DNA from: Thermoanaerobaculia bacterium
GTDB lineage: Bacteria > Acidobacteriota > Thermoanaerobaculia > Gp7-AA8
Direction: 5' to 3'
NCBI GenBank assembly: GCA_017883205.1
Contig: JADGNZ010000024.1
Coordinates: 1-64,000 of the forward strand
DNA length: 64,000 bases
Shown: in pieces, positions 6,626 through 62,139 of the stretch
How positions within the stretch are numbered: position 1 is the first letter of the stretch
Layout: the number at the start of each line of letters is the position of its first letter
Made by a program: the position numbers and the translations under genes
Notes under the pieces: generated by a model
Database searches by the model: none
What the model was told of the DNA's origin: nothing
What the model saw: the letters and a program-made list of their open reading frames with translations, nothing else

Positions 6626-7257
6626 TGTGACACCCCCTGCGTCAGCTTCGCGCGCTGATCTGCCGGCAAATCATTCATGGTTCCGTTCTGGCTCAGTTGC
6701 AGGGCACGAACATAGGCGATGATCGCCCATCGGTCGGCGACGGGAATCTGTACCGCGTACGTGGGCATGGCCCCGAATCCATTGGTCATCACGTCAAAGA
6801 AGTGTCCCGTTTTCGCGTTCCGCAACGCGTCGGTGTGAAACGACGGCGGACGCCGCAGACCGCGCGACGGAATCATGCCGTTGCCGTCGCCGGCGCGGCC
6901 GTGACACACGGAGCAGTAGATGTTGAAACGTTCCTGACCGCGATCCATGACCGCCGCGGTAATCGGGAAGGGGTAGCCATCGCCATCGGCGCCGTTGATT
7001 CTGCCGGTGGCGAGGAAGGTGTCGTTGGCCAGCTCCCCGCGAGCGACAGTTCCGGGGATGCGAGGACGCGCGGACATGCCGTCGGCGAAGAAATCGCTTG
7101 GCTCGAGCGGATCGTATTTGGGTTGGTTGGACATCTTCTGTCTGCAGGAAATCAGAAGGCAGAAGGCAGAAGGCAGAAGGAAAAGCACGAGCGAGCGGCG
7201 CAGTGTCACGCCACTTCTGCCTTCTGCTTTCTGCCTTCTGACTTTACCAAGGAACAT
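6622..7257 (-). CDS. actE: Alternative complex III subunit ActE (lipoprotein monoheme cytochrome c)
   Basis: A 211-residue lipoprotein cytochrome. The heme motif CSVCH is at 115-119 and a likely axial Met lies in [10 protein letters not shown]. The conserved ActE stretches [12 protein letters not shown] and [12 protein letters not shown] follow the lipobox LLISC (Cys38). The start lies inside the last codons of actD. Unusually, the first 38 residues, including the whole hydrophobic core, are encoded by the two arms of an intergenic-type repeat (7152-7242), giving a long basic n-region (1-22). A start at the internal Met42 would lose the signal peptide, so the upstream ATG is preferred. Confidence 0.9.
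7152..7242. repeat. CAGAAGG-type inverted repeat overlapping the actE start
   Basis: The left arm (7152-7180) is built of cagaaggcagaagg units and the right arm (7214-7242) of their reverse complement, with about 33 bases between them. A weaker single arm of the same kind occurs near 45514-45530. Here the repeat lies inside coding sequence and encodes the ActE signal peptide. Confidence 0.8.
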
Positions 7258-13351: not shown

Positions 13352-13522
13352 GCAATTGACAATTGCCAATGGACAATTGACAACGGCGGGAGATCAGAGA
13401 CTCAGAGAGCAGGGGCGATGGAGCAGCGGCGTCAGCGGTATCTCCCGTCTTGATCTCCAAGCCTCTGGCCGCGACGCCGTCACCGCTCGTTGTCAATTGT
13501 CCATTGTCAATTGTCAATTGCC
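13352..13522. repeat. CAATTGACAATTG-type paired inverted repeat
   Basis: The left arm (13352-13385) and right arm (13488-13522) are built of caattgacaattg / caattgtcaattg units and can pair over about 34 bases, with roughly 100 bases between them. The same family appears at 33366-33392, 34085-34100 and 58869-59004. The stop codon of the DUF502 gene lies within the right arm. Confidence 0.8.
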
Positions 13523-14083: not shown

Positions 14084-14233
14084 GGGGGTGGGGAGTGGGG
14101 GGTAGGGAGTGGGAGTAGAACCGGTCTCCCGACTCTCGATTACCGACAACCGACAATCGACAACCGGAAGGCGCCCAACAACCAACTTATCGAAAGACAA
14201 CTCCCACACCCCACACCCCACACCCCACTCCCT
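14084..14233. repeat. GGGGAGTGGGG-type paired inverted repeat
   Basis: A G-rich arm (14084-14122) and C-rich arm (14203-14233) enclose a ccgacaaccgacaatcgac run. The repeats fill the gap between the divergent DUF502 and sigma factor genes, so any promoter for either gene lies inside or next to the hairpin. Confidence 0.75.
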
Positions 14234-16238: not shown

Positions 16239-18478
16239 CGCCGGAAATCTACCATCACCACGGCGTTCCGCGTGGCCTGCGGGTAGTAGTAGGAGATGCC
16301 GCTGATCGTCTTTTCGGGAGTGAGAAAGAGATAGCTGTAGCCGCTCGGGAAGACGCGCTTGTCGTTGAGGACGTTGTTGATCTGCACGCGCAACGTGGTA
16401 TCGCGAGAGAGGCGGATCGCCGCGTTCGCATCGATCGTTGAGAATGCCGGTGCGACGAAGGAGGCGTTGTTCGTGTTGTCGAGATAGGAGCGTCCGACAT
16501 GGCGTCCGGTCACGCCGAGGGTGAGCGACGACGATGCCATGTACTCGATCGACTGATTGACGATCATCGTCGGTGTCAGCACAGGGTTGACGTCGTGATA
16601 CGTGATGGGCTCGCTGCCGGTGATGTTTCCCGCCGCATCGTAGACATCGTAGAACTGCGTCCAGGTGTGGATGCGGTTGCGGCTGATGCTGGCGTTCCCG
16701 CGCAGATGCAACTTCGGCATCGCCTGCCACCCATACTCCATCTCGATTCCTCGGCGATAACTGCGATCGACGTTGCGACGCAGCAGGAGTCCGATGTCGG
16801 ACAGCTCGCCGGTGGATGCGATCTCGTGGCGAAACTCCATCGCGTAGACGTTCGCGCTGACGGTCAGCGGTCCGCGATGGGCATCCCATCCCGCTTCGAG
16901 ATCGACGACACGCTCGGGGCGCACTGCGCGCAGATCGTGTGCAAACGAGACATTGTCCTCGCCTTGAAAGAGATCGTTGCGCGTCGGCTCGCGCGTGGAG
17001 ATACCCGCCGAGGCGTAGACGCCGGTGGATGGAGAAAGGTCGTAGCGAGCGCCGAGCTTGGGATTGAAAAACGTCCAGCGGATTGGCGCGATGGCGACGT
17101 CGCCATGGTAGTGAAAGTTGGTCGTGCGAAGCTGCGCATCGGAGTAGAGATGCCACGAGCCCTCGTCGTAGCGCAGCTTGGCGAAGGCGTTGGCTTCCCC
17201 CTTCGTGCCGTAGTTCGAATAGAGACGCGCGCCTCCCGAGTCGAGCGTGTGGGTGCGCTGGAACTCGTTCACGTGCAGACCGTAGTTGGCGGTCCACGGG
17301 CCGTGCGTGGTACTCAACGTCACCATCGAGCCGACGAGCAGACCATCGAGACCGTACTGATCGCCGGACAGCCGGTACCAGCCGTAGCCACGCTGATAGA
17401 ACGCGGAGGCCGTCATGTTCGTCTGCGGCGAAAGAGCGCGCAGATACTGCAACTGCGCGAGGTCGTAGCCGAAGCTGTCGCGGTCCTGGGGGCCGAGCGG
17501 ATTGGCGCGCAGGTTTGTCGCCAGCGTGTCTGCGTCGGCCGCGTCAAACGATTGCTGCGTCCACTCGTGCGCGGTGAATCCGGTCAGCTTGAGTTGCGAG
17601 TTGTCATTTTGTTTCGCCGCGCTGACGAAGAGGTTGTGGCCGCGAAATCCCGACGACTCCCGAAATCCATCCGACTGATCCGCCGAAAGCCGCGCATAAA
17701 ACGCATAGCCACCCGGCAGGGCGCCCGACTGGTACCCGACAGTGGCGTTCTTCGTCCCGAACGATCCAACGCCAACCTCGGCGCTCGTCGACGACGCAGG
17801 CGCCAGCGCTATCGATTCGAAATTGATCGAGCCGCCGAAGGCCGGCGAGCCGACCGTCGATGTCCCGACGCCGCGCTGCACCTGAACCGATTGCAGCGAC
17901 CGCGCGAGGTCCGGGAAGTCCGCAAAGTACGTCCCCATATCCTCGGAATCGGCGAGCGGAACGCCATCCAGCGTGAAGTTGAGCCGCGTCGGACTGATCC
18001 CGCGCAAGGTGATGTACGAGTACCCCGAGCCTCCAATGCCGGATTCGGTGTACGTGTCGATCGACGGCGTATCGCGCAACAGGAGCGGGATGTCCTGCCC
18101 GTAGTAATCGCGCTCGATGGTCCCGCGGTCGACATCGCTCTTCGTCACCGGCGTCTGCGCTTCCGCGCGAATCCCGCTGACGACGATGTTCTCTGCGAGG
18201 CCGGGCCGCAGCGTGATGACAACTTCCGCATCCGTGCTTGCCGGAGTCGCCATCGCCTGGAATCCGCTGCGCGTGACGATGAGCGTGTACTTCCCTGCCG
18301 GAACATCGAGCGCGAAGCGGCCCTCGATATCGGTCGTCGCCGTGCGATATCCCTCGACCGCCACAGTCGCCGCGTCGATCGGCTTTCCATCAACGCCCCG
18401 AACGACACCTTTCAACGCAGCGGCAGAAACAAGAACCGGAAGAAAGAGGAGAAAGAAAACAACGCGAACAACCCTCAT
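16235..18478 (-). CDS. TonB-dependent outer-membrane receptor under TPP riboswitch control
   Basis: A 747-residue receptor with a signal peptide (1-19), a carboxypeptidase-regulatory-like domain (about 20-95), a plug domain (about 105-215, with PLLLRDTPSIDTYTESG and LNFTLDGVPLADSEDMG) and a 22-strand-type barrel to the C-terminus. It imports a scarce nutrient across the outer membrane using TonB energy. The TPP riboswitch ending about 12 bases before its ATG and the downstream PnuC and kinase genes point to thiamine or a phosphorylated form. Length and domain order are normal. Confidence 0.92.
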   Translation of the reverse strand: MRVVRVVFFLLFLPVLVSAAALKGVVRGVDGKPIDAATVAVEGYRTATTDIEGRFALDVPAGKYTLIVTRSGFQAMATPASTDAEVVITLRPGLAENIVVSGIRAEAQTPVTKSDVDRGTIERDYYGQDIPLLLRDTPSIDTYTESGIGGSGYSYITLRGISPTRLNFTLDGVPLADSEDMGTYFADFPDLARSLQSVQVQRGVGTSTVGSPAFGGSINFESIALAPASSTSAEVGVGSFGTKNATVGYQSGALPGGYAFYARLSADQSDGFRESSGFRGHNLFVSAAKQNDNSQLKLTGFTAHEWTQQSFDAADADTLATNLRANPLGPQDRDSFGYDLAQLQYLRALSPQTNMTASAFYQRGYGWYRLSGDQYGLDGLLVGSMVTLSTTHGPWTANYGLHVNEFQRTHTLDSGGARLYSNYGTKGEANAFAKLRYDEGSWHLYSDAQLRTTNFHYHGDVAIAPIRWTFFNPKLGARYDLSPSTGVYASAGISTREPTRNDLFQGEDNVSFAHDLRAVRPERVVDLEAGWDAHRGPLTVSANVYAMEFRHEIASTGELSDIGLLLRRNVDRSYRRGIEMEYGWQAMPKLHLRGNASISRNRIHTWTQFYDVYDAAGNITGSEPITYHDVNPVLTPTMIVNQSIEYMASSSLTLGVTGRHVGRSYLDNTNNASFVAPAFSTIDANAAIRLSRDTTLRVQINNVLNDKRVFPSGYSYLFLTPEKTISGISYYYPQATRNAVVMVDFRR

Positions 18479-18490
18479 GATGGCTCCGAT

Positions 18491-18568
18491 GCCTTTCCCT
18501 ACGCCGGTCCAAACCGGATCAGGTTCCAGGGTGTGATCTCAGGCCGTGGTTGCGGCCACCCCTAGGCT
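18491..18568 (-). ncRNA. TPP riboswitch (THI element)
   Basis: Read on the minus strand, the conserved parts appear in order: CTAGGGGTGGCC, CTGAGATCACACCC, the signature GAACCTGATCCGG, and ACCGGCGTAGGGAAAGG. This matches the THI-box consensus closely, including the pyrimidine-sensing CTGAGA bulge. It ends within about 12 bases of the receptor ATG, so control is probably by hiding the ribosome binding site when TPP is bound. Confidence 0.95.
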
Positions 18569-18592
18569 TCGGTGCGGATGGTACTACGACTG

Positions 18593-21499: not shown

Positions 21500-21504
21500 G
21501 ACCG

Positions 21505-21620
21505 AAATTCCTCCTGCGAAAGGAAATATCCTCCTGCAGAGGAAAATCTCCTCCTGCAGAGGAAAATATCCTCTTGCGAAGGAAAATATCCTCCTCCAGA
21601 ACACTTTAGTGGTCTTCGAG
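21505..21620. repeat. Array of 20-bp AGGAAAATATCCTCCTGCAG units
   Basis: Four to five consecutive units of about 20 bases (consensus aggaaaatatcctcctgcag) start near 21520, and degenerate pieces continue to about 21760. Each unit contains the near-palindrome AGGAAAATATCCT and the CTGCAG palindrome. It follows the broken antitoxin gene and lies in no recognisable gene, although a frame stays open through it on the minus strand (21455-21991). Confidence 0.75.
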
Positions 21621-21719
21621 AGGAGATTTTGACTCCTGCAGAGGACATCGCGCCTCCCTCGGAAGCAGAAAATGCTCCGAAAGAGCGAAATTTGCCTCCA
21701 GAGGAGCGTCCGGGCCGCT

Positions 21720-21870
21720 GACGCGAAAGGAAAATATCCTTCGCAAGAGGATATTTTCCTCTGCTGTTGCCAAAATTGCTCTATAGCCAAAGGACTTCTC
21801 CTCTGCTGTTGCCAAAATTGGTTATAGGCAAAGGATTTCTCCTCCGCTGTTGCCAAAAATTGCTTTATTC
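21720..21870. repeat. Array of about 42-bp GTTGCCAAAATTG units
   Basis: Three tandem copies, 41-42 bases apart, share ctgctgttgccaaaattg followed by a variable atagccaaagg and ttctcct. The last copy is cut short. They are preceded by the hairpin-like aggaaaatatccttcgcaagaggatattttcct at 21727-21760, which links this array to the 20-bp array beside it. Confidence 0.75.
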
Positions 21871-35226: not shown

Positions 35227-35291
35227 AATTCGCAGCACCGTGACCGCTGTCATCACGGATGACTCCCGGTCGTCGTTACGATCGTCAACCG

Positions 35292-37688
35292 ATGCGCGCT
35301 GCCACCCGAATTGCTTTCATTGCTCTCACCGCTCTCAGCCTTGCGGCGAGCAGCGCCAGCGCCGCGACATTCCTCGTCCCGCCGGATCGCACGCTCGTCA
35401 CTGCTTCGAGAGCGATCGTCGTCGCGACTGCCGGGGAGTCGCACGGACGTCGGGCTCCCGGCGGATGGATCGAGACCGTGACGGAGCTGCACGTGGACGA
35501 GGCAATCAAGGGCGCGATCGGCACCGGCGATACGGTTCACGTCACCGAGCTCGGTGGTTCCGTCGGGGAGATCAGCTACATCGTCGCCGGCAGTCCGAAG
35601 TACGCGCCGGGCCAGCAGGTGCTGCTCTTTCTGGAGACGAACGATCGCGGCGAATGGGTGGCGAAGAACATGGTGGTAGGGAAGTTCACGCCGGCTCAGG
35701 ACACGAGCGGACGACGGCTCCTTCTGCGTGAGGCGGGCGAGATCGTGGGCTGGAACGTCGACGGCTCACCGCATCACGAGCCGGTGCGGTTGGAAACCGA
35801 GTTCCTGCGCTTCGTTCGCGCGGTTGCGCAGGGGCGTGACGCGGCGGAGGACTACATCGTCAGCGATCCGAAACCGTTGCGGAAGAGCGTCATCAGCGAA
35901 GCGGCGGCATCGGCATTCACGCCAAGTGGATATCTGCTGCAAGGCCCGGGAGGCATGGGTATCCGCTGGCCGGTCTTCCCCAACTCCGTCATTTTTCTCA
36001 GCCACGGCACGCAGCCGGGCGCTTTGAACGGCGGCATCACGGCGATGCAACGCGCCTTCGCGGCGTGGACCAACGACCCCGGCTCCAACATCGTCTACGG
36101 ATATGGCGGTACGACGCCGATCGCCAGCACCGGCTTCGGCTCGAACGTCAACGACGGCGTGAACACCGTGCAGTTCAACGATCCTGCGAATGAGATTCCC
36201 GGCTCGTTCACGCCGACCAACGGCGCCACGCTCGCCATCGGCGGCGCGTGGACAGGAAGCGCCACGCATCAGGCGAACGGCGAGCAGTACTACTCGATCG
36301 TCGAAGCCGACCTCGTCGTGCAGAACGGCATCACCGGCCCGGGACTGACCGGCAATGGATTCGATCACGTCCTCACGCACGAGCTCGGGCACACGCTCGG
36401 GCTGCGCCACTCCGACAAGAACGCTGCCGATACGTCCAGCTGTGCCGCGCCGCTCGATTGCTCGACGACCGCGATCATGGACTCCAGCGTCGCCTTCGAC
36501 TCCGACCCGATCGGTTCGACGCTGCAAGCCTGGGACATTGCCGCGATCGATGCCGTGTACGGCTCCGGCGTGGTCACGCCGCCTGCGTGCAATCCTCCGC
36601 GGATCAATGCGCAACCGGCTCCGACGATCGACGTCGGTGCTACTGCCGTCACCTTCTCCGTAACCGCCTCGGGTGACACACCGCTTCAATACCAGTGGTA
36701 CACAGGCACCAAAGGAAACACGAATGCGCCGATCACAGGCGCGACGTCGTCGAGCTTCACCGTCAAACCGATAGTGACCACCGGCTACTGGGTTCGCATC
36801 ACGAATGGATGCGATCCTCCCGCGGACAGCATCACCGTCTACGCGATCGTCAACAGTTGCCCGCCGGTCACGATCGCTTCCCTGTCAGGCGATGTCACGA
36901 TTTTCGAAGGGAAGTCGACACCGCTCGCGATTGCTGCCAGCGGCGGAACCGTTTCGTATCAGTGGTACGCCGGCCCGAGCGGCACGACGACGTCGCCGAT
37001 CCCCAATGCAACCGGCACGACGCTGACGGTTTCGCCCGCCCAGACGACCAGCTACTGGGTGCGGGCATCGAACACGTGCGGATCAAGCGTCGATAGCAGC
37101 ACGGTCACGGTCACCGTCGTCCCATGCACCGCGCCGAAGGTCGTCGTGCAACCGGCAAGCGGCAATATCGTCACCGGCAACGGGACGACTCTCTTCGCGG
37201 CAGTCACCGGCACGCTGCCGATCTCCTACCAGTGGTACGAGGGGACGTTCCCTGACACGACGCATCCAGCCAACAGCGGCACGTCGGCGACGCTGGCCGT
37301 GCCGTCGCTCTTCGCCTCCACTTCGTACTGGCTGCACGTATCGAGCGTGTGCGGCGAGGCCGACAGCACCACCGCGCGGCTCACGACCGTATCGACCTGC
37401 ACGCCTCCATCGATCGCCGTGCAACCGCAAAATCAGAGCGTGACATCGGGATCGACTGCAATCGTCTCGGTCAGCGCGACCGGATCATCACTCTCCTATC
37501 AGTGGTACCAGGGTGGGTTCCTCGATTTCACCCACCCCCTCGGCGGCAACGCTCCCTCGGTGCTGACGCCCGCGATCACCGCAACGGCGCAGTTCTGGGT
37601 ACGCATCACCAGCCCCTGCGGCAACGTCGACAGCACGGTCGCAACCGTGTCCGTCGCCGTGCAGCCGCGGCGAAGGGCGGCGAGGTAG
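35292..37688 (+). CDS. Secreted matrixin-like metalloprotease with Ig-like repeats
   Basis: A 798-residue exported protein with a signal peptide (1-24), a pro-region, and a metzincin zinc site HELGHTLGLRH beginning near residue 363. After the protease domain come four Ig-like repeats (about 435-795), each carrying a YQWYxG motif and a YWVRxS/T segment with paired Cys. It probably degrades or binds extracellular polymer. The start at 35292 begins the signal sequence. A repeat array follows immediately. Confidence 0.85.
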   Translation: MRAATRIAFIALTALSLAASSASAATFLVPPDRTLVTASRAIVVATAGESHGRRAPGGWIETVTELHVDEAIKGAIGTGDTVHVTELGGSVGEISYIVAGSPKYAPGQQVLLFLETNDRGEWVAKNMVVGKFTPAQDTSGRRLLLREAGEIVGWNVDGSPHHEPVRLETEFLRFVRAVAQGRDAAEDYIVSDPKPLRKSVISEAAASAFTPSGYLLQGPGGMGIRWPVFPNSVIFLSHGTQPGALNGGITAMQRAFAAWTNDPGSNIVYGYGGTTPIASTGFGSNVNDGVNTVQFNDPANEIPGSFTPTNGATLAIGGAWTGSATHQANGEQYYSIVEADLVVQNGITGPGLTGNGFDHVLTHELGHTLGLRHSDKNAADTSSCAAPLDCSTTAIMDSSVAFDSDPIGSTLQAWDIAAIDAVYGSGVVTPPACNPPRINAQPAPTIDVGATAVTFSVTASGDTPLQYQWYTGTKGNTNAPITGATSSSFTVKPIVTTGYWVRITNGCDPPADSITVYAIVNSCPPVTIASLSGDVTIFEGKSTPLAIAASGGTVSYQWYAGPSGTTTSPIPNATGTTLTVSPAQTTSYWVRASNTCGSSVDSSTVTVTVVPCTAPKVVVQPASGNIVTGNGTTLFAAVTGTLPISYQWYEGTFPDTTHPANSGTSATLAVPSLFASTSYWLHVSSVCGEADSTTARLTTVSTCTPPSIAVQPQNQSVTSGSTAIVSVSATGSSLSYQWYQGGFLDFTHPLGGNAPSVLTPAITATAQFWVRITSPCGNVDSTVATVSVAVQPRRRAAR

Positions 37689-37703
37689 CAAGGGTACGCA
37701 TCG

Positions 37704-38195
37704 AGCCATCGACGATGCGTTTTGAACCGTCGACGGTGCGTTTTGATCCATCGATGCTGCTATTTCATCCATCGACGGTGCTTTTTCATCCATCGACGGT
37801 ACGTTTTGATCCATCGATGGCTCGTTTTGAACCAACGACGGTACGTTTTGATCCGACGATGGTTCGTTTTGAACCAACGACGGTACGTTTTGATCCAACG
37901 ACGGTGCTTTTTGAACCAACGATGGTTTGTTTTGATCCAACGATGGTTCGTTTTGATCCGACGATGGTTCGTTTTGAACCAACGACGGTACGTTTTGAAC
38001 CAACGACGGTACGTTTTGATCCAACGACGGTGCTTTTTGAACCAACGATGGTGCTTTTTGAACCATCAACGGTTCTTTTCGGCCAACGACGGTGCTTTTT
38101 GAACCATCGATGGTTCTTTTCGGCCCCCGACGGTGCTTTTTGAACCATCGACGGTTCTTTTCGGCCATCAACGGCTCTTTTCGGCCATCGATGGT
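37704..38195. repeat. Array of about 24 CCATCGACGG units with 20-21 bp period
   Basis: A core of type CCAWCGAYGG (perfect palindrome ccatcgatgg in some units) recurs from 37704 to 38183, with 9-11 bases of T-rich spacer (gttttgatcc, gctttttgaa, ttcttttcgg). Spacing is exactly 21 in the first units I counted and 20 at several places near the end. Frames on both strands stay open through most of it because of the period. It fills the gap between the protease and the ABC-F gene. Confidence 0.9.
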
Positions 38196-38255
38196 GCTTT
38201 TGACCCACCCGGCACCACACTCCGACCCCCGACCCCCGACACGCGACCCCGAAAC

Positions 38256-39887
38256 CTACGTATGCACGCCCGGCGCTTCGTGGCCGCTGTCGCTGACGTA
38301 CTCGACGTAGGAGCCTCCGAACACGCGTGGGGCGGCGCCGCGTTCTTCGGGCAGTTCGAGCACGCGATTGGAGAGGCCGCGAAGGAACATGCGGTCGTGC
38401 GAGACGAAGAGCATCGTGCCTTCGAAATCGTGAAGCGCTTCGACGAGCATTTCTTTCGTGGCCAGGTCCAGATGGTTCGTCGGCTCGTCGAGCACGAGGA
38501 AGTTCGGCGGATCGAGGAGCATCCGGGCGAGCACGAGGCGTGAACGCTCGCCGCCGGAGAGCGAGCGGATCTTCTTCTCCACCTCGTCGCCGGAGAACTG
38601 GAACGCGCCGAGGAGACTGCGGAGCGTGCCGATCGACTCGAGCGGAAAGTCTTTCTGGATCTGCTCCCACACCGTGAGATTCGGATCGAGCACGTCGAAG
38701 GCCTGCTGGGAGAAGTAGCCCATCTTCAGCGATGCGCCGAGGCGTACGTTGCCGCCGTCCGGCTCGACCGCGCCCGAGACCATCTTCAGCAGCGTCGACT
38801 TGCCGGCGCCGTTCTTTCCCATCACGCACCAGCGCTCGCCGCGGCGGATGAGGAAATCGAAGTCCTCGTAGATGGAGCGCTTGCCGTACGCCTTCGAGAC
38901 ATCCTTGAGCGTGACGACGTCGTCGCCCGAGCGGGACGGTCTGCGGAAATCGAACTTCATCGTCTTCCGCTTCTTCGGTGGCTCGAGCTTCTCGATTTTG
39001 TCGAGCGCCTTCACGCGGCTCTGCACCTGCGCCGCTTTGGCCGCGTGCGCAGCGAAGCGGTCGATGAAGCGCTGCTCCTTGGCCAGCATCGACTGCTGCC
39101 GTGCGTAGGCGGCCTCGCGGTTGGTCTCGCGGATGGCCCGCTCCCGCTCGTAGAACTCGTAGTTGCCGGAGTAGGTGACGAGATCGCCCTCGTCGATCTC
39201 AACGATTTTCGTGACCACGCGGTTCATGAACTCGCGGTCGTGCGAGGTCATGAGTAGCGAGCCTTCGTATCGCTTGAGGAAGTCTTCGAGCCAGATGATC
39301 GACTCGATGTCGAGATGGTTGGTCGGCTCGTCCATCAGCAGGACATCTGGCCTGCCGAGGAGGACTTTGCCCATGGCCACGCGCATCTTCCAGCCGCCGC
39401 TGAGTGCACCGACATCGCCGTCGATGCGGTCGTCCTCGAAACCGAGACCGTGAAGAACTTCGCGAGCACGCGCTTCGAGCTCGTATCCGCCGAGGTGCGA
39501 GTAGTCTTCCTGGACGTGGCCGAAGCGGTCGAGGATCTTGTCCATTTCATCGAGCCGGTCGTGATCGGACATCGCGTTCTGCAGCGCTTCGAGCTCGTGG
39601 TGAAGGTCGCCGAGGCGGCCGCTGCCGGCGATCGCTTCGTCGAGAACGGAGCGGCCGGACATCTCTTCGATGTCCTGGCGGAAGTAGCCGATGGTGATTT
39701 TCTTTGGAACGGAGACGTCGCCGTCATCGGCCGATTCCTCGCCGACGATCATGCGAAAGAGGGTCGTTTTGCCGGAGCCGTTCGGCCCGACCAGTCCGGC
39801 GCGCTCACCGGGATTGAGCTGAAACGAGGCGTCCACAAAGACGAGCTGCCGGCCGTACTGCTTGGAGATTTTGCTGAGGCTGATCAT
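38256..39887 (-). CDS. ABC-F family ATPase (ribosome-associated)
   Basis: A 543-residue protein with two ABC domains and no membrane segments. The first has Walker A GPNGSGKT (34-41), LSGGWKMRVA and LLMDEPTNHLD; the second has GKNGAGKST, LSGGERSRLVLAR and LVLDEPTNHLD. The linker (residues about 240-300) is rich in Arg/Lys. ABC-F proteins act on the ribosome exit site or on antibiotic release. The start at 39887 is the usual MISLSKISKQYG position. Confidence 0.93.
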   Translation of the reverse strand: MISLSKISKQYGRQLVFVDASFQLNPGERAGLVGPNGSGKTTLFRMIVGEESADDGDVSVPKKITIGYFRQDIEEMSGRSVLDEAIAGSGRLGDLHHELEALQNAMSDHDRLDEMDKILDRFGHVQEDYSHLGGYELEARAREVLHGLGFEDDRIDGDVGALSGGWKMRVAMGKVLLGRPDVLLMDEPTNHLDIESIIWLEDFLKRYEGSLLMTSHDREFMNRVVTKIVEIDEGDLVTYSGNYEFYERERAIRETNREAAYARQQSMLAKEQRFIDRFAAHAAKAAQVQSRVKALDKIEKLEPPKKRKTMKFDFRRPSRSGDDVVTLKDVSKAYGKRSIYEDFDFLIRRGERWCVMGKNGAGKSTLLKMVSGAVEPDGGNVRLGASLKMGYFSQQAFDVLDPNLTVWEQIQKDFPLESIGTLRSLLGAFQFSGDEVEKKIRSLSGGERSRLVLARMLLDPPNFLVLDEPTNHLDLATKEMLVEALHDFEGTMLFVSHDRMFLRGLSNRVLELPEERGAAPRVFGGSYVEYVSDSGHEAPGVHT

Positions 39888-53077: not shown

Positions 53078-53174
53078 GCCTAACGTTGTTATTGAGCCCC
53101 AGGCCCCTTCGCCACCGAAAAACCTGGTGTGACGGATATCGGGTGATGGGGCTTGGTGCGGCGTGGATCGTAAC
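53078..53174 (-). other. attC-like site, degenerate
   Basis: It begins with GCCTAAC (53078-53084) and contains inverted gagccccaggcccc / ggggcttgg. The other end reads gtaac rather than GTTRRRY. It marks the last cassette-like boundary before the 21-bp array. Confidence 0.45.
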
Positions 53175-53407
53175 ATGCGGCTGTCGAATGGGTTGGCTCA
53201 CTGCGGCTGTGGTCATGGCGCGGTTATCGGTCGGGTCGTGACGGCGAATCTTCCGTCGCGCTGCCCAGCGCATCGAGAGGGCGATGAAATTTCGTTTGCG
53301 GGAATAACCGAGGCCAGTTGCGGCACGACTTCGTCGATTCTGGCCAGTTTTCTACCAAAATCGGGTGATTCCGACCCTCCGACGGCCCCTTGGTCGATTT
53401 CAAATTT

Positions 53408-53734
53408 GAGTACCGACTCAAAAAATATGAGTACGGACTCAAAAAACATGAGTACCGACTCACCGGATTTGAGTACGGACTCACCGAACTTGAGTACGGA
53501 TTCAAAAAATGTGAGTACCGACTCAAAAGATGTGAGTACCGACTCAAACGTTATGAGTCCGGACTCACCAAGTTTGAGTACCGACTCACGCGATGTGAAT
53601 ACGGACTCACACGATGTGAGTACGGACTCACCGGACATGAGTACGGACTCAGATGACGTGAGTACCGACTCGAGAAGTGTGAGTACCGACTCATCGGTCT
53701 CGAGTCCGGACTCGAAAAACCTGACTCCGCACTC
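53408..53734. repeat. Array of 16 GAGTACSGACTC units at exactly 21 bp
   Basis: The 12-base near-palindrome GAGTACCGACTC / GAGTACGGACTC (perfect form GAGTCCGGACTC) starts at 53408 and recurs every 21 bases through 53723, 16 units in all. The nine bases between cores vary (aaaaaatat, accggattt, acgcgatgt and others). Because 21 is a multiple of 3, several frames stay open, giving heptad patterns such as STDSKNM; I do not take these as proteins. Confidence 0.95.
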
Positions 53735-53841
53735 ACGGGACGAGGATGGCGACGCGGTTCGCGGTTGCCCGGACGTCAACGTTGCCGGTCTCGAAGGTGC
53801 GTGATCGCTTCGTGACGGCCGTTTACCGCTTCCCTGCTCGG

Positions 53842-54240
53842 CGGTGAGTCATCCGTTGCCGCGGGCAACGACTCTCGCATCTTCGCGATGAGGCAACCCG
53901 GCAACCTCGCAAAACGGCGAGCCGGAACCGCGAATCCGCAACTCCCGAAATCAGTCCCGTAACCTTCCGACGGGCTGCTGCGTCTCACATTCAGAGCACG
54001 GCCATCAGCGCGTCGCTGATGGCCACTACCTGGATCGTCGTACGTGAAAAACGCAGGAGAAAGCTATGGACGACAAGCGGAGCCGCCAACCTCATCCCTC
54101 GGTGCGGCAATCCGCTCCCGGCACCGCGAAGAGCCGGGACCCGGAAAACCACCAAAACAACTTTCTGCCGGGCTGATGCGTCATACATCCAGAGCACCGA
54201 AGTTCCCGGCCGGCAGCGTGTCGCTGACGGCCAGTAAACA
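53842..54240. repeat. Imperfect tandem duplication of about 200 bp
   Basis: Two diverged copies share an order of motifs: a gccggaaccgcgaa-like part, then gacgggctgctgcgtctcacattcagagcacgg against gccgggctgatgcgtcatacatccagagcaccg, then gcgtcgctgatggccactacctgg against gtgtcgctgacggccagtaaacag. No gene fits either copy. It leads up to the 249-residue gene. Between 52923 and 54306 I see only this, the 21-bp array and the attC-like site. Confidence 0.55.
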
Positions 54241-54306
54241 GTCGAAGTACCCGAACATCCAGACCCACGCGGGTAAGGGCGCGTGGCTATGAGATCCGGA
54301 GATGTT

Positions 54307-55056
54307 ATGAGACAACGCAACCAAAGCAGCAGTCCTTCTTCCACCTCGGGCAAGCGCGTTCGTAGCGACACGAGCGCAGGCAAGCGTGGCCGCTCGGTTC
54401 AGGCCCGCAAGCCGTCCGCCCGGGACGCCGTCGCATCCCCCGGCCCTTCCACGCCGCCGGCTGATATGTCCCCCGAGGAGCAAGCCGCCGCACTCATGGC
54501 CAAGCTCGATGAGTTCCAGGCACTGATGCCCGAGTTCCAGCATCACGATCCGAACGACATCCGCCGCGTGGCCGGGGTCGCTCGCTTCGCCGCCGACCTG
54601 GTGGTGCCGACCATCGCCCTGGTGACGTCCTTTCCACCCGCCGCCGACCGGAACCTCTTCGACACTGAAGCGAACCAGTTGCGGGTGCGTGCCTTTGACG
54701 CACTGGGGCCGGTCGTGCAGCGTCTCAACGCTCTCGCCGCCGGAGTGCAGTTCACCCGCCACAACGGAATGGGCGAGGCGGGATCCCAGAGTCTCGACGT
54801 GTTCACCTGGGGCAAGTCGTATTCGAAGCGGCCCGATGCCGCCGCCCTCCGCCCGTACGTCGCCACGATGTCGAAGGTTGTGAAGAAGGTGCTCAACCGC
54901 CGCAAGCGGAAGGCATCACCACCCCCCGCCCCCGCGCAGTTGCCCCCCGGTGCACAGGGTCTCCTCGCTTCAAACTTCGTCCCTTCCAAGCCCGCCGCTG
55001 AAGAGGTCTATCCCGACTACTTCAACGAGGCGTTGGATCGGGCTACGAAGAAGTAA
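54307..55056 (+). CDS. Hypothetical protein of unknown function
   Basis: A 249-residue soluble protein. The first 55 residues are basic and Ser-rich (low complexity). A helical core (about 60-200) includes PEEQAAALMAKLDEFQALMPEFQ and FDTEANQLRVRAFDALGPVVQRLN, and the tail is Pro-rich. The start at 54307 follows a GGAGAT site. No family was recognised. A terminator follows. Confidence 0.65.
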   Translation: MRQRNQSSSPSSTSGKRVRSDTSAGKRGRSVQARKPSARDAVASPGPSTPPADMSPEEQAAALMAKLDEFQALMPEFQHHDPNDIRRVAGVARFAADLVVPTIALVTSFPPAADRNLFDTEANQLRVRAFDALGPVVQRLNALAAGVQFTRHNGMGEAGSQSLDVFTWGKSYSKRPDAAALRPYVATMSKVVKKVLNRRKRKASPPPAPAQLPPGAQGLLASNFVPSKPAAEEVYPDYFNEALDRATKK

Positions 55057-58868: not shown

Positions 58869-59004
58869 GGGCACTCAGCAATTGATAATGGACAATTGAT
58901 AATGGACAATTGACAATTGACAACGAACAGACGCGGTCCACGATCCACGTGAGACAGGCATGCGTTGGTGTTCGTTGTCAATTGTCAATTATCAATTGTC
59001 AATT
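58869..59004. repeat. CAATTGATAATGG paired inverted repeat
   Basis: The left arm (58869-58923, caattgataatggacaattgacaattgac) and right arm (58972-59004, ttgtcaattgtcaattatcaattgtcaattg) pair over more than 30 bases. It lies between the DJ-1/PfpI gene and the next minus-strand gene. Confidence 0.8.
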
Positions 59005-59828: not shown

Positions 59829-60084
59829 GCAGGCGCGGGGGTCGCGGGTCGGGGGTCGGGGGTCGGAGCGGGGTGTGGGGAGTGGGGAGTGGGGAGTGGG
59901 GAGTGGGGAGTGGGGAGTGGGGAGTGGGAGCGGCAAGCTCCCGATCCGCCGTTCTGATCTCTCGCGCCCTGATCTCTTTGACTCCTCTCTCGAACAGCAA
60001 CGCGCCACTGCCACTGCTCCGACTCCCGACCCCCGACTCCCGACTCCCACTCCCCGCTCCGACCCCCGACAACCGACCCCCGCA
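59829..60084. repeat. GGGGAGTGGGG direct and inverted repeat block
   Basis: About seven direct copies of gtggggag (59876-59929), preceded by gggtcgggggtcgg units, face a C-rich block (60019-60084, ctcccgacccccgactccc...). The arms are about 90 bases apart. It lies between divergent genes. Apart from this, 59604-60116 shows no gene. Confidence 0.8.
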
Positions 60085-61233: not shown

Positions 61234-62139
61234 TTAGCCGACACTGTCAACGCGATAGGCTGCGAAGACGTTGCCTTGAATCCACTGACCGGAGAGCGTG
61301 ACGTAGTCGCCGCGGCCGAGCTGGGCACCGCCGGCCTCGCGCATGTCGACTTCGAACAGCCGGCCGGTTGACGCGTCGCGAAGGGTCAGCATTCCGCTCT
61401 GATAATCGACCTGCTGCACGACACCACGGACGTAACCCTGGTCATATCCGTAGCCGCTGCTCGCGGGCCAGCTCACGGCGTCGATACCGAAGACACCGCC
61501 GCGGTAGATGCCGCCGAGGCTGAGCGAAACGCCGACGCGCAAATCGCGTGCTCGGTTTCCAAAACGCGACTCCGGAATCCAGTAACTGCCGCTGTCGAGA
61601 TTGACGCGATAGCCATCTCGTTCGCGGTTGAACGACTGGACGCGGCCGCTGATGTTGGCGCGCTGATTCTCGCGATAGGTGTTCGCCTGATCGACGCGGC
61701 CGCGTGACTGATAAGCGTTGTCCCGCGACTGATTGGTGTTGCGGTAGCCGTTCTGCTCGTTGCGCTGCTCGGTATACGCTGGCTGCGCGGCGACCGGCGC
61801 GACGTTCACCTGCTGCTGTCCGTTCCGCTGCTGGTAGTTCGTCCGGCCCGCGTTCTGCTGGTTACGCTGCGCCGCATACGTTGGCTGCGCGACTACCGGC
61901 GCCACATTCACCTGCTGCTCTCCATTCCGGCGCTGGTAGCCTGTCCGGTCCGCGCCGCGCTGATTGGTCTGCACCTGCGTCTGTGCGTTCTGCCGGTGAC
62001 GGTTTTGGCCGTCGTGGCTTTGCCCGTCGCCATTCCCGTCACGATTCCATTGCCCAGCCGCAAAGGCCGGCGTTGATGCGAGCACTAAGGACAACACGCC
62101 CGCTCCTGCCCACTTCACTGCTGCTCTTCCTGCGTTCAT
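61234..62139 (-). CDS. Secreted Gln/Asn-rich protein with an internal repeat
   Basis: A 301-residue exported protein. The signal peptide (1-25) ends in ASTPAFA. Residues about 28-170 are Gln/Asn/Arg-rich and contain a tandem repeat (QQVNVAPVVAQPTYAAQRNQQN / QQVNVAPVAAQPAYTEQRNEQN, split here for length). The C-terminal 130 residues form two OB-like beta domains (GRVQSFNRERDGYRVNLDSG and GVVQQVDYQSGMLTLRDAST). RBS GAGGAGG precedes the ATG at 62139. Confidence 0.75.
   Translation of the reverse strand: MNAGRAAVKWAGAGVLSLVLASTPAFAAGQWNRDGNGDGQSHDGQNRHRQNAQTQVQTNQRGADRTGYQRRNGEQQVNVAPVVAQPTYAAQRNQQNAGRTNYQQRNGQQQVNVAPVAAQPAYTEQRNEQNGYRNTNQSRDNAYQSRGRVDQANTYRENQRANISGRVQSFNRERDGYRVNLDSGSYWIPESRFGNRARDLRVGVSLSLGGIYRGGVFGIDAVSWPASSGYGYDQGYVRGVVQQVDYQSGMLTLRDASTGRLFEVDMREAGGAQLGRGDYVTLSGQWIQGNVFAAYRVDSVG

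Follow-up and report, generated by a model that had tools for sequence, protein, structure and literature searches.

Iteron-Rep and parS-ParB systems, like other cooperative arrays, place short sites at helical spacing beside the gene of their binder, with further sites in trans. Satellite-like arrays are thought to be few in bacterial genomes, and one-protein-one-site families are few outside restriction enzymes and transcription factors. REPs are palindromes of 20-40 bp, single or paired and tagged GTAG/CGTC, and the RAYT protein is a tyrosine HUH transposase (PMC3733652). In type III toxin-antitoxin systems, the repeats are pseudoknot RNAs, with a terminator and the gene of an endoribonuclease downstream (PMC5086642). 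The soil bacterium considered here carries, by estimate, about 250 arrays that share a period but differ widely in code, and they are partnered with proteins of a family to which library and fold searches gave no match.

Here, we have analysed a 64,000-nucleotide stretch of DNA from a Thermoanaerobaculia bacterium (the window), in which the initial annotation had described about 24 CCAWCGAYGG units with T-rich linkers filling the gap between a protease gene and an ABC-F gene. The features at this site are as follows.

35259-37688, plus strand: M57-like peptidase (Peptidase_M57) with Ig_7 domains, left neighbour (context only)
37706-38205, no strand assigned: array of the CC core family, classed as solitary, 24 units, period 21 or 20
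37349-38143, plus strand: spurious, non-genic open reading frame that translates the array into heptads; frame unconserved in other copies
37786-38829, minus strand: spurious, non-genic open reading frame across the array; extends over the ABC-F gene in a different frame
38256-39887, minus strand: ABC-F ATPase, right neighbour (context only)

A core-based count gave the 24 units at 37706-38205, each with a CCRWCGAYGG core and then a linker with a T-tract, and TRF reported a period of 21, 21.5 copies and a score of 438. The annotated period of about 21 bp with a few 20-base steps near the end was recovered as 19 steps of 21 bp and 4 of 20 bp, the latter clustered at the right end. The core is indeed unrelated to that of a second array at 53.4 kb, and the two periods are equal. 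The array occupies a convergent gap between the stop of the peptidase at 37688 (+) and that of the ABC-F gene at 38256 (-), and Rfam finds no RNA family in it. The window's only Rfam match is a TPP riboswitch at 18478-18573 (-).

Long open frames run through the array on both strands, and the annotation's warning that they would mislead gene callers into heptad-repeat proteins is borne out by the two spurious frames listed above. These open frames are the one point in favour of a heptad-repeat protein, to which we give practically no credence. The frames are broken by 20-bp steps, in the reported array and in its relatives; stops lie in differing frames and are scattered differently among the other copies of the CC core family, so that no open frame is conserved; and arrays sit in gaps between called genes. 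Site variability, compared across the CC core copies, showed no codon phase (0.64/0.60/0.77 bits). Since the 20-bp steps break the frames, stops differ among copies and codon phase is absent, we take the 37.7-kb array to be non-coding.

The annotation had also suspected other cores with the same period, and there are dozens of them in this genome and its relatives. In a de novo survey of 678 kb of unselected sequence, about a tenth of the draft genome and with gene calls from a simple hexamer caller, we found 27 non-coding arrays with units of 20-22 bp (or a doubled or tripled unit), from which a genome-wide total of about 250 arrays of period 20-22 is estimated by scaling. The pooled steps of the first 45 arrays were 21 bp (456 times), 22 bp (69), 20 bp (64) and all others (28). 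Their cores are mostly unrelated, and include TGAGT-N4-ACTCA, AGAT-N4-ATCT, AGTTC-N7-GAACT, TGATCCGGATCA and CAACAAAAATTTTGTTG, among others. Convergent, tandem and divergent gaps harbour arrays roughly as intergenic space is distributed, with no orientation preference beyond that. No account of these arrays emerged from a literature search that mostly covered papers available without subscription.

The same 678 kb held 12 heptamer arrays and 2 others with at least three copies. Heptanucleotide repeats (7/14 bp) of various units, often near gene ends, also occur in the window at 7153-7180, 13490-13520, 14203-14232, 58879-58923, 59836-59928 and 60019-60082. Two short arrays at 21504-21868 (20-bp and 42-bp units, CCTCCTGCAAAGG) may be a decayed array and match no gene-linked array. 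A called gene contains a 102-bp coding duplication at 61749-61954.

The second array of the window lies beside a gene of the protein family that we consider its partner. The features of this locus are as follows.

53282-53852, plus strand: dispersed element (array with conserved flanks), about 570 bp, bounds approximate
53402-53693, plus strand: second window array, with TGAGT-N4-ACTCA cores at period 21; its linked gene begins at 54307
53961-53985, plus strand: possible ECF-sigma-type promoter, AACCTT-N14-CGTCT, with a second at about 54159-54183
54307-55056, plus strand: family gene, 249 aa, all-alpha with disordered tails, partner of the 53.4-kb array

The TGAGT element, of which the 53.4-kb array is the middle, has six copies here and two in the congener G002 (MAG Chersky.31_28, Thermoanaerobaculia). 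Another dispersed repeat, at 53130-53283, abuts it and recurs about eight times in G002 and twice more here; a short inverted repeat element (...GAGTTTGGACAAAAGTGTGAGAAAGCGGGCTAAT) occurs near TGAGT element ends (L157, L159, L030) and array elements, and is diverged in G002. The AACCTT-N14-CGTCT motif precedes 7 of 66 family members and 0.9% of random windows, a weak association that is mainly found in one subfamily (window 53961 and 54159, L238, L242, L256, L257, L266, L016). As it occurs in only these seven members, we rejected a common ECF-like promoter for the whole family.

The family proteins have about 180-270 residues and are all-alpha, with 46 matches in this genome and 36 in G002. 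The family was previously unnamed and is recognised by no library or fold search that we used: searches of Pfam, NCBIfam, PHROGs and PADLOC gave nothing beyond single weak matches, and PDB sequences gave none. With 50 members as queries, no Pfam match rose above chance. The PADLOC models gave three single-member matches only (E 0.007-0.02). AlphaFold models were all-alpha (mean pLDDT 83 and 80, pTM 0.55-0.59), with a helix of more than 50 residues and disordered tails; they matched no fold in the PDB, and one model compared with viral structures matched none. Plasmid, phage and viral collections contained no relatives of the window protein at 54307-55056. One column is invariant (P45) and one nearly invariant among 50 members, in which no catalytic signature or conserved catalytic residue was found.

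Arrays occur where the family occurs. Members are present in 5 of 148 genomes of the class (three congeners, G009 and G016) and in 2 of 297 genomes drawn from the phylum, namely the window's genome and G009. Arrays were found at 27 per 678 kb in this genome, 10 per 300 kb in G002, 1 per 100 kb in the congener G001 and 4 per 88 kb in G009, which belongs to another genus. In the two congeners (sparsely in G001) and in G009, the arrays are of the 21-bp type with different cores. Class-mates without family members, counted together with the one-member genome G016, yielded no such array in 544 kb; G016 itself showed none in 80 kb. Among 78 other loci (1.23 Mb, nearly all Acidobacteriota), two arrays were counted as 20-22 bp.

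Genes and arrays are linked with a consistent polarity. The array AGATCGCGATCT is present in both this genome and G002 and is followed by homologous genes; relatives of these genes follow the 53.4-kb array of the window and, in G002, an array whose core is GCATCGATCC. With linkage defined as a 20-22-bp-type array within 1.5 kb upstream (gap 0-1.4 kb), 53 of the 62 members having at least 900 bp upstream were linked, a count in which the positives of G001 and G016 are due to one and the same short repeat, which may be coding. Downstream arrays were found in 2 of 64, and random 1.5-kb windows contained an array in 7.9%. All members inspected in G009 follow the upstream rule. Contigs of both drafts often end just upstream of a family gene (L244, L246, L249, L250, L278), and the arrays probably cause these assembly breaks.

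By BLAST, the gene-linked arrays fall into about 31 core groups, which have unrelated cores and all have units of 20-22 bp. Site sequence tracks protein sequence: cores are alike in 11 of 16 pairs of proteins at least 70% identical, and similarity is gone below about 65% (Mantel p 0.0005). The exception is the pair L273/L276, whose proteins are 82% identical with unrelated cores. Comparison of same-core with different-core protein pairs gave no localised signal of specificity residues.

Dyad symmetry was significant (p<=0.05) in 36 of 54 gene-linked arrays when tested unit by unit against column shuffles, and in 28 of 44 non-redundant cores (combined p 7e-26). This unit-based test is the decisive one; consensus-based palindrome and hairpin tests on all arrays are underpowered. 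The term 'palindromic', as the reported array had been called, describes gene-linked arrays generally but only in part the core to which it was applied. The CC core is a partial palindrome (CC..GG) in which pair 3-8 is A-C in 112 and pair 4-7 is A-A in 53 of 183 family units, and a hairpin test on the window consensus was not significant (p=0.80).

Dyad half-sites are conserved above their surroundings, weakly so in the CC core of the reported array. In the eight copies of the TGAGT element, sites differ at 7-10% in the arms, 21% in the centre, 33% in the linker and 26-48% in the flanks; because a consensus served to delimit the arms, the contrast is partly ascertainment, and the flanks of the same copies are the fair reference. 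Arm mismatches were G-U in 79 cases versus A-C in 110, with no strand bias to G-U. An RNA hairpin maintained by G-U wobble, which was suggestive in the TGAGT family alone and reversed elsewhere, was rejected on these totals.

The reported array has its gene-bearing kin elsewhere in the genome. A DNA search of the whole genome (6.37 Mb in 105 contigs) placed the CC core family at about 15 more loci (E down to 1e-148), and because of this recurrence the array must be considered far beyond chance expectation. Conservation in this family is strongest at CCA.CGAYGGT and a nearly invariant TTTT tract. Searching other genomes, as the annotation had advised, gave no CC core locus in 60 relatives, and arrays of the same period with other cores were found. 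Over 428 and 382 nt, the 37.7-kb array shares 74-75% identity with gene-linked arrays on contigs C16 and C20, whose partners are two closely related family genes (L026:8675-9250 and L028:8909-9481); for a third member of the clade, encoded on C76, the 3 kb upstream contain no array. No family gene lies near 37.7 kb, and the sole one in the window, at 54307-55056, belongs to the TGAGT clade. From this absence and the match to the C16 and C20 arrays, we conclude on sequence grounds that the 37.7-kb array is a solitary, gene-less copy, with gene-bearing loci of its core family on those two contigs. More broadly, when 41 own arrays, gene-linked ones among them, were compared with the sampled gene-linked arrays, 26 had a match. 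The other 15 had none, some of these rows being short heptamer-type arrays, and for some cores no partner gene was located.

Between congeners, the slots examined differ. The ABC-F orthologues of G001 and G002 have no 21-bp array at the 3' end. In G001, a heptanucleotide repeat stands at that end, where this genome bears its array. In the post-enolase slot, our genome's array has no counterpart in G002, where the gap is about 29 bp. The arrays at C1:255761, C1:61542, C11:2368 and C1:287413 likewise have no counterpart array at the orthologous G002/G001 slots, and at C1:216157 and C1:279895 both species have arrays with unrelated cores. Given this presence/absence and replacement at the slots examined, array positions turn over fast, and any single solitary array is dispensable.

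We propose that each gene with its array forms a module of a DNA-binding protein and its sites, and that at 37.7 kb such a site array stands alone, a reading that we favour with some confidence. It draws on linkage and polarity, phyletic co-occurrence, a common period with unrelated cores, core conservation and the solitary arrays, all of which are observed; from them we infer binding, oligomerisation and function. In a module, a small all-helical protein would be encoded downstream of its array, at a distance of 0-1.4 kb; the array would consist of about 10-28 copies of a core that is usually dyad-symmetric, private to the protein subfamily, and spaced at two helical turns. The protein, probably dimeric, would bind its own core, and the 21-bp spacing would align all bound proteins along a single face of the DNA, allowing cooperative binding or oligomerisation. 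The gene-linked array would then regulate its gene or nucleate assembly, and the 37.7-kb array, like other solitary ones, would be a target in trans that anchors, loops, silences or insulates intergenic DNA. Candidate functions are autoregulation, looping between solitary and gene-linked arrays, silencing and selfish maintenance. As the period is two turns and the cores are private, unrelated, dyad and conserved in their arms, a DNA-binding protein with cooperative sites on the same face would be the simplest account. An enzyme and an RNA target are disfavoured by the absence of conserved catalytic residues and of a sense-strand preference for G-U, since a lack of bias of G-U over A-C is expected of a DNA target and not of a sense RNA. 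Against the module stand the lack of a recognised DNA-binding fold in the family, the L273/L276 pair, which a strict one-protein-one-core code has to explain, the poor palindrome of the 37.7-kb core, the 15 of 41 unmatched own arrays and the fast turnover.

It is conceivable, if unlikely, that array and gene are instead selfish composite elements without host function, mobile or driven by gene conversion, with solitary arrays as non-autonomous (MITE-/REP-like) copies and a period that would reflect the copying machinery. Arrays do lie within dispersed elements with conserved flanks (TGAGT, 6+2 copies), are present, absent or replaced between congeners, and belong to many core families scattered genome-wide. 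However, the protein has neither a transposase, nuclease or recombinase signature nor conserved catalytic residues, the TGAGT element inspected by eye has no terminal inverted repeats or target duplications, and its array arms are more constrained than the rest of it.

An RNA-protein module of the type III kind, in which the repeat RNA binds or neutralises the downstream protein and solitary arrays are decoys, would account for the order of repeat array and small gene (polarity 53/62) and for a repeat private to a protein subfamily. It seems improbable to us, since the one locus inspected for an intrinsic terminator between array and gene, window 53690-54320, has none, the gap reaches 1.4 kb, the all-alpha protein has no ToxN match or conserved catalytic residues, the sense-strand arms show no G-U bias, and helical-turn spacing is left unexplained. 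Least credible among readings that leave the array non-coding is that of ordinary REP/BIME-type or terminator-like extragenic palindromes guarding mRNA ends, which we hold to be very improbable. The repeats are extragenic and the 37.7-kb array is in a convergent gap, but gap types follow intergenic space, and exact 21-bp tandem spacing with private cores is unlike REPs (PMC3733652). With no orientation preference and no terminator-like sites in 37660-38280, a terminator or REP-like function at 3' ends was rejected.

Returning to the module reading, we consider it an even call whether the whole is a lineage-specific, self-diversifying DNA-addressing system, with a few dozen paralogues of a new fold per genome whose codes outpace their proteins. 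Each paralogue would have its own array of 21-bp period as operator or nucleation site, and private solitary arrays chromosome-wide. If binding is confirmed, dozens of natural protein/site pairs would be available from which specificity, cooperative spacing and insulation between paralogues could be read directly, and the system could represent a novel form of bacterial chromatin or of selfish DNA.

Among known systems, CRISPR (24-48 bp repeats with unique spacers) does not fit a 21-bp period with 7-bp linkers that are common to units and copies, and the three single-member PADLOC matches (E 0.007-0.02) do not make the family a known anti-phage defence family. The closest analogues, REP-RAYT and type III toxin-antitoxin, differ from the modules in defining features that we compared. 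Like REP-RAYT systems (REPtrons), the arrays are dispersed extragenic palindromic repeats of several families per genome with a protein gene near some copies; unlike them, they are long head-to-tail arrays at a fixed two-turn spacing, with 20-22 bp units and dozens of cores that have no common tag, and the all-alpha family has no HUH motifs and no match to a HUH tyrosine transposase. Type III toxin-antitoxin systems (ToxIN, CptIN, TenpIN) share a tandem array upstream of a small gene (53 of 62) and a repeat private to the protein family, but here the cores are DNA-like dyads at 21-bp spacing, the gap is often hundreds of base pairs, many arrays are solitary, and the protein is all-alpha, with neither the terminator nor a ToxN/CptN/TenpN-like endoribonuclease found. 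Heptanucleotide short tandem repeats (PMC4692102) are also lineage-specific and intergenic, and 7-bp arrays occur in this genome too; the arrays differ from them in 21-bp units without visible 7-bp repetition, in dyad cores and in partner proteins. Compared with iteron-Rep and parS-ParB, there is no Rep/ParB homology, one genome carries an estimated 250 or so arrays with dozens of site sequences, and the protein family is confined to a few Acidobacteriota; what the modules would share with those systems, if the proteins bind as we propose, is a set of helically spaced sites adjoining the partner gene, with others in trans.
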